Shown here: positions 48,086 to 51,195 of the stretch, one piece after another
How the letters are laid out: the number at the start of each line of letters is the position of its first letter
Numbering within the stretch: position 1 is the stretch's first letter
Assembly: GCF_014195535.1 (NCBI RefSeq)
Contig: NZ_JACIBY010000011.1
Coordinates: forward strand, 1 to 64,000
Direction: 5' to 3'
From: Runella defluvii
Lineage (GTDB): Bacteria; Bacteroidota; Bacteroidia; Cytophagales; Spirosomataceae
Length of the DNA stretch: 64,000 nucleotides
Made by a program: the position numbers and the translations under genes
Notes under the pieces: generated by a model
What the model saw: only the letters and a program-made list of their open reading frames with translations
Database searches by the model: none
What the model was told of the DNA's origin: nothing

Positions 48086-48325
48086 ATGAATACAACAGAG
48101 TTAAAATCTACCCTTCATACGCTCATCGAACGGATTAATGATGACGCCATCTTACAGGCGTATGTTGTTTTGTTATCACGCGAAGCTGAAGGAGTGCCTG
48201 ATTTTTGGGATAATCTGGATACTCCTACTCAAGCGGCAATCCAAGAAGGGCTTCAAGACTTGAACGCTGGGCGTAAAACCGATTTCTTTGATTTTATGAA
48301 GTCGCAGTATGGAATTAACCGTTGA
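48086..48325 (+). CDS. probable antitoxin of a type II toxin-antitoxin pair
   Basis: A 79-residue acidic protein (STLHTLIERINDDAILQAYV, then AAIQEGLQDLNAGRKTDFFD) typical of Bacteroidota addiction-module antitoxins. Its 3' end overlaps the downstream RelE/ParE-type toxin gene by 17 bases, the usual antitoxin-first arrangement. It lacks an obvious DNA-binding ribbon-helix-helix, but its C-terminal half has the extended shape expected for wrapping a RelE toxin. Confidence 0.8.
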   Translation: MNTTELKSTLHTLIERINDDAILQAYVVLLSREAEGVPDFWDNLDTPTQAAIQEGLQDLNAGRKTDFFDFMKSQYGINR

Positions 48326-48599
48326 ACTTTCAGAACGCGCCCGCCGAGACATAGAACAAATTGCTGGTTATTTAGCCAAAACCTGGTCAGAACGCAGCAA
48401 AATAGAATTTTTGTTGACGTTAACCGATCAGATGAAACTTATCAGCAAAATGCCCTACCTCTATAAAGTTTCTCAAAAACAAGCTAACATACGCGAATGT
48501 GTGATGAACAAGCACGTCGTATTTTACTATCGTGTGCTTGATACAAGCATCGAAATCATCACAATTCGCAATACCCGTCAAAAACCTGAAGAGTTTTGA
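48309..48599 (+). CDS. RelE/ParE-family toxin
   Basis: A 96-residue protein of the RelE/ParE fold. It begins ELTVELSERARRDIEQIAGY, continues WSERSKIEFLLTLTDQMKLI, and ends with the conserved strand HVVFYYRVLDTSIEIITI and an Arg-containing tail. ParE members poison gyrase and RelE members cleave ribosome-bound mRNA; which applies is not clear. It overlaps the antitoxin gene and ends 18 bases before the convergent argH stop. Confidence 0.88.
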   Translation: MELTVELSERARRDIEQIAGYLAKTWSERSKIEFLLTLTDQMKLISKMPYLYKVSQKQANIRECVMNKHVVFYYRVLDTSIEIITIRNTRQKPEEF

Positions 48600-48617: not shown

Positions 48618-49952
48618 TTATTTCAACAACTTCTCCACGGCTCCGTGCACTTTTTCAAATCCAAATCGGTGCATTTCATTTTCCATCAATCCTACAATTT
48701 GATCATTACACAAATTTCCGATACTTCCTTCGTGGGTGTGTTTGAGGTCGCGGGAAGCGTGGTAGGTATTTTCATTGATTTCTTTGCCCACTTGACGGTA
48801 CGCATCGCGGAAAGGCACTCCTTGTACCACTAATTCGTTGACCCGTTCTACACTAAACAACAAATCGTATTTGGCATCGACCAACAAATTGGGTTTTACT
48901 TGCAAGTGTTCCAACATAAAATGCGTGATGTCCAAACAATCCAAAATTTCTTCAAAAGCAGGCATCAGCAATTCTTTTAACAACTGCATATCGCGGTGAT
49001 AACCCGATGGTAAGTTGCTCATGACCATCGTGAGTTCGGTTGGCAGCGCCTTCAAACGGTTCGTTTTTGCCCGTAATAACTCTGCTACGTCGGGGTTCTT
49101 TTTGTGCGGCATGATACTGCTTCCCGTTGTTAAATCGTCAGGCAGGGTGACAAAGGCAAAGTTTTGGCTATTGTACAGGCACACGTCCATCGCCAATCGC
49201 GACAACGTCGCCGACAACGCCGCAATGGCCGTCAGAGCCGTTTGTTCGGTTTTCCCGCGTGACATTTGGGCGTAAACCACGTTGTAATGCAAGGTTTCAA
49301 AACCTAATAATTCGGTGGTCATCGTGCGGTTCAGTGGAAATGAAGAACCATAACCAGCTCCCGAACCAAGCGGATTTTTATTGGCTAACTTATAAGCCGT
49401 TTGAATCATGCTCATGTCGTCCACCAATGCTTCGCCGTAAGCACCAAACCAAAGGCCAAACGACGATGGCATCGCGATTTGGAGGTGCGTATAACCTGGC
49501 AAAAGGTCGTTTTTGTGCTGATTTGAGCGTTTGATGAGCAAATCAAACAGTTTTTTAGAAGCTAGCGCTACTTCTTCTAACCGACTGCGCGTGAAGAGCT
49601 TCATGTCCACCAATACTTGGTCGTTGCGTGAACGGCCGCTGTGGATTTTTTTGCCGACATCGCCCAATTTACGCGTAAGCATTAGCTCTACTTGCGAGTG
49701 TACATCCTCTACCCCCTCCTCAATCTCAAATTTACCCTGTTGAATCTCTTGGTAAATAATTCGTAGTTCGTCATTCAACATTCGTAATTCATCATTCGTC
49801 AGAAGTCCTACGCTTTCGAGCATGGTAGCGTGTGCGATGTTTCCTTGCACATCGTAAGGAGCCAAATACAAGTCCATTTCACGGTCACGCCCGACGGTGA
49901 ATTTCTCAATTTTTTCGGAGATGGAAGTCGTTTCTTTTTGCCAGAGTTTCAT
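48618..49952 (-). CDS. argH: argininosuccinate lyase
   Basis: A 444-residue cytoplasmic enzyme that splits argininosuccinate into arginine and fumarate, the last step of arginine synthesis. The start at 49952 (MKLWQKETTSISEKIEKFT) fits the family; ten more residues from 49982 lack support and lie in repeat DNA. VHSQVELML, HSGRSRNDQVLVDMKLF and the GSxxMPxKKNP signature (GSSIMPHKKNPD) are seen. A tandem 18-bp-like repeat inside the gene encodes TNDELRMLNDELR near residue 66. The promoter region is made of GxxExxY-cassette remnant DNA. No other arginine gene adjoins. Confidence 0.95.
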   Translation of the reverse strand: MKLWQKETTSISEKIEKFTVGRDREMDLYLAPYDVQGNIAHATMLESVGLLTNDELRMLNDELRIIYQEIQQGKFEIEEGVEDVHSQVELMLTRKLGDVGKKIHSGRSRNDQVLVDMKLFTRSRLEEVALASKKLFDLLIKRSNQHKNDLLPGYTHLQIAMPSSFGLWFGAYGEALVDDMSMIQTAYKLANKNPLGSGAGYGSSFPLNRTMTTELLGFETLHYNVVYAQMSRGKTEQTALTAIAALSATLSRLAMDVCLYNSQNFAFVTLPDDLTTGSSIMPHKKNPDVAELLRAKTNRLKALPTELTMVMSNLPSGYHRDMQLLKELLMPAFEEILDCLDITHFMLEHLQVKPNLLVDAKYDLLFSVERVNELVVQGVPFRDAYRQVGKEINENTYHASRDLKHTHEGSIGNLCNDQIVGLMENEMHRFGFEKVHGAVEKLLK

Positions 49953-49959
49953 TTTTTTT

Positions 49960-50044
49960 ACCACTAAGACACTAAGTTTCACTAAGGTAATGACTCAAAC
50001 TACTCGTTTCCCGTCGGCTTAATGCTTTTTGTGATGTTTTCTGT
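49960..50044 (-). pseudogene. 3' remnant of a second GxxExxY gene with its terminal repeat
   Basis: These 85 bases align end to end with 50061-50145. They include one terminal repeat (49960-49986, differing at one base) and the last codons of a GxxExxY gene (TENITKSIKP is still readable), now with a premature stop at the codon before FESLP. Only the 3' part survives. Confidence 0.85.
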
Positions 50045-50060
50045 GAGAGAATTATATTTA

Positions 50061-50516
50061 ACCACTAAGGCACTAAGTTTCACTAAGGCAATGCCGCAAA
50101 ATGCTCATTTACCATTGGCTTAATGCTTTTTGTGATGTTTTCTGTATGAAAATTTATAAGTAACCCCTTAGGTTTTTGCAACAATTTCATGTACGTCAAT
50201 AACTGTGCTTCAAAAAGGGGAATGAGGTTTTCTACCGCTTTTAGTTCTACTACAACACAATCATTCACCAGTAAATCCAACCGTAAATCTGCCTCTAAGC
50301 GCACCTCTTTATAGACAACAGGCACGGTAAGTTGTCTAATTACCTTAAAACCTTTGAGTTGTAATTCATAAACTAGGCAAGTCTCATAAACAGACTCCAA
50401 CAGCCCTGGCCCAATCTGTCTATGAACCTCAATTGCGCATCCCACAATTTCGTATGCTAATTGATTGACCTCTTTTTTAGTCATCATCACTTAGTGCTTC
50501 TTAGTGCCTTAGTGGT
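50061..50516. mobile_element. putative mini-element: GxxExxY gene bounded by 27-bp inverted repeats
   Basis: The left repeat (50061-50087) and the reverse complement of the right repeat (50490-50516) agree at 24 of 27 bases, sharing ACCACTAAGGCACTAAG and CACTAAG. The enclosed gene fills the element: its stop lies within the left repeat and its start abuts the right repeat. Related repeats occur at 49960-49986 and 51141-51195. No separate transposase is present. Confidence 0.6.
50083..50487 (-). CDS. GxxExxY family protein, PD-(D/E)XK-like
   Basis: A 134-residue protein of the GxxExxY family; the naming motif is seen in GPGLLESVYETC. The sequence LRLDLLVNDCVVVELKAVEN gives the D-x(n)-ExK pattern of the PD-(D/E)XK nuclease fold, so DNA cleavage or binding is plausible. 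The family is frequent and often repeated in Bacteroidota genomes, but its function is not established. The start is ATG at 50487 or 50484; a GTG at 50490 is less likely. It is flanked by inverted repeats that make it look like the cargo or agent of a small mobile element. Confidence 0.88.
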   Translation of the reverse strand: MMTKKEVNQLAYEIVGCAIEVHRQIGPGLLESVYETCLVYELQLKGFKVIRQLTVPVVYKEVRLEADLRLDLLVNDCVVVELKAVENLIPLFEAQLLTYMKLLQKPKGLLINFHTENITKSIKPMVNEHFAALP

Positions 50517-50539
50517 TTTATTTTTCAGAAGGGTCAAAA

Positions 50540-51124
50540 TTACTTCTTTTTGGCAAAAATCTTTGCATCCGTTATTTGCTCGCGGTGTTCTTCCAGAAAC
50601 ATTTTAAACGAATACAATTCCTCCAACTGCCCTTCAAAATCGGCAGAAGCGGGATAGATTTCTTCATAAACGCCGACAAAATCGGTTATCAAATAGCGCA
50701 TTTGACGAACTCCACGGCCGTAAAGAGCTGGTAAATAGAAGTTTTGGTGGTCTTGTAGAAACCGTTGGGTTTCGTAGTGTGATGTAGTTTTGATGTCAAC
50801 GGCTTCTTTACGTCCCAATACATCCACAAAGCCATAAATAATCACATCGCCTACTTGGTATTGGCAGTAGGCTTGGGTTTTTACAATGGGAGAAGGGAGT
50901 TTTTGGCGAACGGTTGCAATAATTTGAGGGTCAAATTGCTCTTCGCCGATTTTTTTCAATACCGCATCTTCAAACGATACTCCCCTAAACTGGGCTTCGG
51001 TTTGTGGGATAGGCACTCGATTAATGCGGTCTAGCACTTCCTGCTCACTGATTTTCCCCTGCAAAAACCGTGAGTAGGTGTTGAGCAACGAAGGATAAAA
51101 ACGGTAAGCTACTTTGGAAGTCAT
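50540..51124 (-). CDS. probable PD-(D/E)XK-fold nuclease-like protein
   Basis: A 194-residue protein. GVSFEDAVLKKIGEEQFD (Glu) precedes VIIYGFVDVLGRKEAVDIKT, which gives the D-x(n)-D-x-K core of RecB/Cas4-like PD-(D/E)XK nucleases. It continues with YLPALYGRGVRQMRYLITDF. It lacks zinc or iron-sulfur cysteines. It lies between two CACTAAG repeat regions, next to the GxxExxY gene. Whether it cuts DNA in the cell or is a structural relative is not known. Confidence 0.65.
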   Translation of the reverse strand: MTSKVAYRFYPSLLNTYSRFLQGKISEQEVLDRINRVPIPQTEAQFRGVSFEDAVLKKIGEEQFDPQIIATVRQKLPSPIVKTQAYCQYQVGDVIIYGFVDVLGRKEAVDIKTTSHYETQRFLQDHQNFYLPALYGRGVRQMRYLITDFVGVYEEIYPASADFEGQLEELYSFKMFLEEHREQITDAKIFAKKK

Positions 51125-51140
51125 GTACGTTTATTATTGA

Positions 51141-51195
51141 ACCACTAAGGCACTAAGGGGCACTAAGAAAAGAATACCCTTAGTACCTTAGTGGT
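51141..51195. repeat. empty pair of cassette-type terminal repeats
   Basis: A left-type repeat (51141-51167) faces a right-type repeat (51177-51195). Their outer 19 bases are complementary with one mismatch (wobble in RNA), forming a long hairpin with no gene inside. It looks like a MITE-like derivative of the GxxExxY element, or could act as a terminator hairpin. Confidence 0.65.

Follow-up and report, generated by a model that had tools for sequence, protein, structure and literature searches.

REPs are chromosomal in habit and insert without target duplication. As described in the available text of PMC3733652, REP/RAYT systems comprise short dispersed palindromes, a few of which flank a small enzyme gene, with gene-less copies in excess and the palindromes tagged by GTAG or CGTC. 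A second relevant system is the intervening sequence of Coxiella, a 428-nt element with a 28-bp terminal inverted repeat and one small ORF, in which three tandem heptamers precede the S23 start codon and which is cut by RNase III (PMC4990558, available text). The same text cites older proposals that such intervening sequences were mobile, and calls their origin unclear. The S23/four-helix-bundle family, PF05635, has been linked to the Avd protein of diversity-generating retroelements (PMC10053308, available text). GxxExxY, the subject of this report, names a common family for which no function is stated. In the literature searched, with most subscription journals and bioRxiv preprints lying outside the search, there was no account of flanking arrays, element-specific heptamers or gene-less derivatives for this family.

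The window analysed here is a stretch of 64,000 nucleotides of Runella defluvii, and the features of interest are listed in Table 1. The original prediction, made from the letters alone, was that a GxxExxY gene forms a compact cassette bounded by 27-bp inverted repeats, with the stop codon in one repeat and the start beside the other. The repeats are real: the two inverted arms pair at 25 of 28 bases (28 nt, 89% complementary), enclose the nuclease ORF in a cassette of 456 bp, and stand to its stop and start codons as had been claimed. Each arm of ~27 bp consists of three CACTAAG heptamers separated by spacers of 1-3 nt, with an ACC tip in front. The cassette sits between argH and a protein gene, and not in 23S rRNA.

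Table 1. Features of the GxxExxY cassette and its surroundings in the Runella defluvii window.
Feature	Position	Strand	Remarks
Flanking argH, argininosuccinate lyase	48618..49982	-	listed GTG start runs into truncated arm
Truncated second copy of the cassette left end	49956..50053	+	98 nt, 86% identical to 50057-50154
Left arm	50060..50087	+	AACCACTAAGGCACTAAGTTTCACTAAG; 3 CACTAAG units; nuclease stop codon inside
GxxExxY protein, PD-(D/E)XK_3 family	50083..50490	-	135 aa, GTG start
Right arm (inverted)	50490..50517	-	3 CACTAAG units; adjoins nuclease start
Flanking gene, 194 aa, anchor for the orthologous site	50540..51124	-	no Pfam / NCBIfam match
Gene-less hairpin (MITE-like), arms same as cassette	51140..51195		DNA-fold z -7.0

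Allowing up to three mismatches, the 17-mer ACCACTAAGGCACTAAG occurs five times in the window, against 0.08 expected, and none of 100 shuffles reached five. Two of these copies are the cassette arms, one belongs to the truncated second copy, whose own arm lies at 49960-49986, and two are found in the gene-less hairpin; both the truncated copy and the hairpin had been missed by the original prediction. The true start of argH is probably an ATG further inside the ORF. In the whole genome (8.0 Mb, 50 contigs), eight places match the 17-mer at no more than one mismatch, and of the three that lie outside the window, two make up a further hairpin, on contig 14, and the third is a half-element. Two other features of the window may be recorded here. 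The 194-aa flanking gene holds a VDVLGRKEAVDIKT stretch, which we take to resemble another PD-(D/E)XK core, and two small overlapping ORFs on the forward strand (48086-48325 and 48309-48599), with no NCBIfam match, resemble a toxin-antitoxin pair of the RelB/ParE type.

The protein encoded by the cassette matches TIGR04256 (GxxExxY) with an E-value of 2.9e-42 and 143.7 bits (cut-off 35), and PF13366 (PDDEXK_3) with an E-value of 8.2e-40 and 136.3 bits (cut-off 22). No family other than PDDEXK_3/GxxExxY was matched in Pfam or NCBIfam, and the protein is therefore not a HUH/Y1 tyrosine transposase. Across 48 aligned sequences, E30, D70 and K82 are invariant and E80, Q94 and Y98 nearly so; the D-x(n)-ExK core of PD-(D/E)XK nucleases, which had been pointed out before, is thereby conserved at D70, E80 and K82. 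GxxExxY shows a weak match to Cas4 (E-value of 5e-4), and no solved structure related to it by sequence was found. We regard it as a predicted nuclease of the PD-(D/E)XK fold, an assignment that rests on sequence. Purifying selection acts on the gene in the window's site, with dN/dS values of 0.03-0.07 for the cassette ORF in five pairs of genus copies with a finite dS, four of them near saturation; a sixth pair was saturated.

The compact cassette proved to reach far beyond this locus. At least 588 GxxExxY loci were confirmed in contigs representing one genome per species, and those listed include Bacteroidota, Planctomycetota, Chloroflexota, Acidobacteria, Proteobacteria, Spirochaetota, Cyanobacteria and one archaeon. 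Eighty loci were kept and 76 scored, the flanks of the other four being too short. For the best inverted repeat enclosing the gene, the median score was 16.75, compared with 8.5 for mis-paired flanks, and a score of at least 16 was reached by 42 of the 76 loci as against 1 of 152 mis-paired combinations. A larger set, enlarged by loci from relatives and from 25 of those genomes, gave 221 matches; these came down to 175 distinct ones, of which 165 had flanks of 120 nt or more. Here, 103 loci scored at least 15 and 62 fell below. Among mis-paired flanks that score was reached by 9 of 660, and among further ORFs of these loci, chosen away from the cassette, by 8 of 150. With a strict three-unit pattern, 70 arrays in the flanks of the 80 loci were oriented as expected and 25 the opposite way, with expected arrays on both sides in 26 loci and on at least one side in 43.

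An inverted repeat arising by chance is ruled out by the mis-paired flanks, the control ORFs and the shuffles. The same comparisons refute the related reading of an ordinary gene that happens to lie between terminator-like hairpins; several hairpins indeed stand just behind gene ends, as terminators would, but with one heptamer shared by both arms of an element this reading retains next to no probability. Three loci of one genome (L277, L278 and L280 of G069) have inverted repeats scoring 43.5, 26.5 and 31 without clear heptamer triplets.

The arms vary between elements, and within many of them the same 7-mer occurs in both arms; CACTAAG, CGCAGAG, CACGAAA, CGCTAAT, CACGGAT and CACGGGG are among the heptamers seen. 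A heptamer was repeated in the upstream arm of 146 of the 165 elements, and in these it recurred inverted in the element's own downstream arm in 69% of cases, against 10% in the downstream arms of other elements. Recurrence in direct orientation stood at 29%. A control confined to the same genome, for which genus loci were not grouped by genome, gave 65% against 9% (n=54). By a stricter measure with one heptamer pattern, at least five of six units were found in 69 of 165 elements and in 9 of 165 mis-paired ones. Among 71 elements, 97 arms had three units, 24 had four and 21 had two, and 229 of 287 spacers measured 1-3 nt. The elements have a sharp terminus: in 70 elements (140 arms), the tip has the consensus TTNACC, TTNAC precedes the first unit, and left-right identity drops to background past position -6.

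The heptamer tracks the protein lineage. Base 7 is G in 49 elements, 46 of which carry a GLLE motif in the protein; it is T in 14, with another motif in 12 of these, and A in six, two of them with GLLE. On a tree of 62 proteins (69 less three with shifted heptamers and four near-duplicate orthologues; many forks unresolved), base 7 required 8 changes compared with 16.7 for shuffled labels, and base 4 required 17 compared with 24.8, with none of 300 shuffles as low in either case. The corresponding values were 13 and 19.3 for base 5 (1 of 300 as low), and 12 and 15.0 for base 2 (11 of 300). The 62 elements have 22 distinct heptamers. Since gene and arms are linked, the correlation with the tree shows that they form a unit, as cognate recognition predicts, rather than that they bind. 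Residues 26, 28, 97 and 101 correlate with base 7, and 118, 120 and 123 with base 4; these correlations are confounded by phylogeny and thus support no claim.

Heptamer arms are also carried by S23 loci. PF05635 genes were present in 30 of 34 genomes tested, in up to 15 copies, and 20 of 29 scored S23 loci (L333-L362, 30 loci, one with a short flank) reached a score of at least 15, against 0 of 116 mis-paired flanks; a motif served to place the gene, and the wrong ORF was probably picked at some of the loci that fell short. The arms of these loci, which lie elsewhere in the genomes than in 23S rRNA, are inverted and look like strictly tandem heptamers (AGGATTG, AGTTGAG, GATAGTC and others).

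The S23 arms raise the question as to whether the element acts at the level of RNA, the arms forming an RNA stem cut by RNase III as in 23S rRNA intervening sequences, so that the cassette is tolerated in operons and spreads passively. The Coxiella element, with its 28-bp repeat, three heptamers and RNase III cutting (PMC4990558, available text), is a precedent, and the cassettes lie mostly in sense orientation between co-directional genes: of 105 loci with co-directional neighbours, both neighbours run with the gene in 93 and against it in 12 (orientations taken from ORF calls; a further 26 loci were mixed and 34 undefined). Against this, arm mismatches on the sense strand show no excess of G-U over A-C (95 and 113, or 69 and 64 at a stricter cut), which argues against pairing in an RNA stem as their chief constraint. 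Furthermore, an RNase III stem needs no match between heptamer and protein, and an Rfam scan of 32 loci of relatives found no rRNA at any of them, nor any known RNA close to the cassette in the loci scanned. We therefore consider an RNA-level element unlikely.

Arrays also occur without the gene. In the 80 loci, the strict pattern found 38 arrays away from the cassette and none in mononucleotide shuffles of whole loci. A looser pattern, run without a shuffle control, gave 102 arrays, with 16 pairs facing each other within 120 nt and four facing away; 20 hairpins picked from the listed pairs measured 67-123 bp. One of the hairpins (L147:3481-3589) still encodes, by eye, IVELKSVEKI, the ExK region of the nuclease, and on account of this coding relic it is read as an internally deleted cassette. 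In the genome G077, three dispersed hairpins share a common core that is ~80% alike by eye, with unrelated flanks. An exact 17-mer pattern was applied to 25 gene-bearing genomes, with a reversed-pattern control that gave 0 in all of them. It was found 134 times in G061, 207 times in G062, 48 times in G077 and 42 times in G075, far above the respective numbers of GxxExxY genes (5, 7, 6 and 2), and was absent from 11 of the 25.

The original prediction had held two findings to be damaging in combination, repeats lying mostly without the gene and orthologous sites always holding it. The former is indeed seen in several genomes, while the latter does not apply at the argH or leuA-leuB sites described below; the gene-less excess is not counted against the cassette, as a relation to MITEs or REPs predicts such an excess. 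Two other arrangements were observed. In G155, G205, G130 and G114, from one family of the phylum, arrays often stand tip to tip and face away from each other, a few to ~30 nt apart, an order unlike that of the usual hairpin. At L142:3796-4304, three near-identical hairpins of 38-39 bp lie within ~500 bp.

Does the presence of arrays depend on that of the gene? We surveyed 148 genomes of the window's phylum with one array pattern and its reversed control. The 75 genomes with the gene contained 299 arrays (control 25) and the 73 without it 24 (control 32); at least three arrays were present in 25 genomes with the gene and one without (Fisher 9e-8), and at least six in 16 and none, respectively. 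Arrays of the tested pattern thus exceed background only where the gene is present. Fewer than three were found in 50 of the 75 gene-bearing genomes, and the many gene-bearing genomes with few or no arrays are explained in part by each pattern covering one heptamer class. This distribution bears on a mobilisation in trans, in which an unrelated transposase, such as a RAYT or IS enzyme, would move the hairpins with GxxExxY as a passenger. Such a route would accord with the lack of target duplication, as in REP/RAYT insertion, with the dominance of gene-less copies in some genomes, and with S23 cassettes that have arms and no nuclease. It is quite unlikely, given that in the phylum sample arrays rise above background in GxxExxY genomes only and that the heptamer follows the GxxExxY clade.

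Insertion positions were compared within the genus. The 194-aa gene of the argH site was recovered in 12 of 13 genus genomes, the window's own included. A full cassette lies between this gene and argH in G000, G002, G005 and G008. G007 and G003 hold remnants, which include stretches resembling the truncated copy of the window, and the full copy of G007 appears to have collapsed to the palindrome AACCACAGTGGTT. In G010, G006, G001, G009, G011 and G012, a conserved short ORF takes the place of the cassette. Presence, decay and absence are all seen, and none of the 12 genomes has a clean empty site; where the original prediction had looked to empty sites, genomes without the cassette carry that other ORF. 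As for the short ORF and the cassette, one has displaced the other. The gene-less hairpin of Table 1 is present in G000, G010, G007 and G003 and absent in the other eight genus genomes examined. At two further hairpin sites, the genomes are too diverged to define an empty-site junction.

A second GxxExxY gene of the same genome sits between two genes that we take, from their sequences, to be leuA-like and leuB-like. Here, the comparison of insertion positions did yield presence and absence at one orthologous site, with a cassette in nine of 13 genus genomes (own included) and only a 16-nt spacer in the four empty ones (G006, G009, G011 and G012). The occupied sites contain three cassette types, distinguished by eye: one in G000, G007, G001 and G004, another in G010, G008 and G003, and a third in G005 and G002; the G001 cassette is interrupted where its contig stops, and G007 and G008 have broken copies. 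G000 and G005 have different cassette types between flanks that are 93.5% and 95.2% identical. In-place replacement is the simplest reading of such differences; an alternative is homologous recombination of the operon around the site, by which cassettes would be lost or exchanged. In several leu-site cassettes, the start codon falls within the heptamer array. The cassettes of G010 and G003 (L309 and L312) have a different, GC-rich palindrome breaking into the downstream arm, of which G005 has a similar stretch; as it is missing from the very similar G008 cassette, it may represent a different REP-like repeat that has inserted there.

These sites might also be taken to reflect a non-mobile function, with a resident nuclease of repair, recombination or regulation and arrays that serve as its recognition or autoregulatory sites, their spread being selected and not selfish. 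Purifying selection, retention of the argH cassette in four genus genomes and the start codon within the leu-site array would fit such a role. So would a hairpin that several species retain at one position, and whose third heptamer is changed in both arms between G012 and G011, and the distribution of the window protein, which is absent from phage records and very rare in plasmid records. Against it stand copies that share a core but lie scattered in unrelated surroundings, the different cassettes found at a single site and the existence of broken copies, and we consider this reading very unlikely.

With the window protein alone as query, so that distant members may escape, none of the 50,697 phage records searched gave a match, and of 72,556 plasmid records only 8 did. 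Two of the plasmid regions were opened, one of which looked chromosomal (radA and its neighbours), the other lying on a 568-kb replicon; when 2.9 million viral contigs were searched with the family alignment, a single locus turned up. Within the reach of these searches, the near-absence from phage, viral and plasmid records led us to reject phage or plasmid cargo. This chromosomal habit also speaks against an ordinary IS.

Target duplications, which the original prediction had proposed to look for, were not seen: in 70 elements no length or offset stood clearly above mis-paired flanks, the best of 81 combinations being 2 bp (13 of 70 versus 10% expected), and none was evident by eye in 20 hairpins. 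The combination of palindromic ends and no target duplication fits a single-strand or hairpin route, which we take, in part from the available text of PMC3733652, to be that of REP/RAYT pairs. Among the 165 cassettes, there were no near-identical full copies at two places of one genome; pairs more than 78% identical came from different genomes, or were two overlapping matches in locus L294. No transposition event with a strain-level empty site was found in the material compared.

The best explanation, which we consider fairly probable, is that the window element belongs to a widespread class of minimal, REP/RAYT-like cassettes with a PD-(D/E)XK enzyme, from whose distribution we infer movement. 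Cassettes of this class consist of two opposed heptamer arrays that enclose one gene for a predicted PD-(D/E)XK nuclease of ~130 aa. The nuclease, probably in oligomeric form, would bind the heptamer triplets of a hairpin that is extruded or single-stranded, and would cut at the TTNACC tips. In this way hairpins, and on rare occasions entire cassettes, may spread and leave no target duplication, with the cassette gene perhaps being expressed by read-through transcription. By analogy, the pair would work as REP and RAYT do in a REPtron, a PD-(D/E)XK enzyme replacing the HUH tyrosine transposase. That the protein might mobilise its own cassette, as had been suggested for this locus, is plausible. 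Since S23 genes, which are not nucleases, have a like anatomy, the nuclease may not be the only or the essential mover.

A wider proposal may be put forward tentatively, namely that an unrecognised REP-like system, pan-prokaryotic in extent, has GxxExxY as its enzyme. A nuclease of ~130 aa would read a heptamer code that varies between elements and mostly stands three times in each arm, and would copy or move a cassette of ~450 bp along with swarms of gene-less palindromes. S23 intervening sequences would form a second branch, the 23S rRNA case being a special case of a general operon-invading class. The cassettes and their scattered gene-less repeats suggest an overlooked class of tiny selfish DNA. 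If the proposal is true, it would describe a REP-like system with a different chemistry, would provide a natural set of enzyme-heptamer pairings (22 heptamers among 62 elements), and would bear on the origin of 23S rRNA intervening sequences. Judged by the sizes of IS, the cassettes would then rank with the smallest elements known to carry a gene. The whole idea lends itself to tests with a small protein and short oligonucleotides.

How, then, does the element compare with known systems? The window protein is a clear member of the GxxExxY family (TIGR04256; PF13366, PDDEXK_3), whose names describe the protein only. In common with classical IS, the cassettes have terminal inverted repeats with a sharp end, and in common with MITEs, the gene-less hairpins share their arms with a gene-bearing element, one hairpin in another genome keeping a coding relic. 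Unlike MITEs and classical IS with a DDE transposase, they show no target duplication and are linked to no known transposase class. The resemblance to 23S rRNA intervening sequences lies in the terminal inverted repeat and in the heptamers beside the start codon; however, the GxxExxY cassette lies between protein genes and contains a nuclease ORF instead of S23, and its arms have spacers of 1-3 nt whereas S23 arms are, by eye, strictly of period 7. With respect to REP/RAYT, the GxxExxY enzyme belongs to the PD-(D/E)XK class and the RAYT enzyme to the HUH/Y1 tyrosine transposases, and the arms are heptamer triplets with an ACC tip (TTNACC in 140 arms) in place of a GTAG or CGTC tag. The likeness to these systems (REPtrons, TIRtrons) lies in short dispersed palindromes related to the repeats that flank the gene of the enzyme, in the excess of gene-less copies, in the lack of target duplication and in the chromosomal habit.
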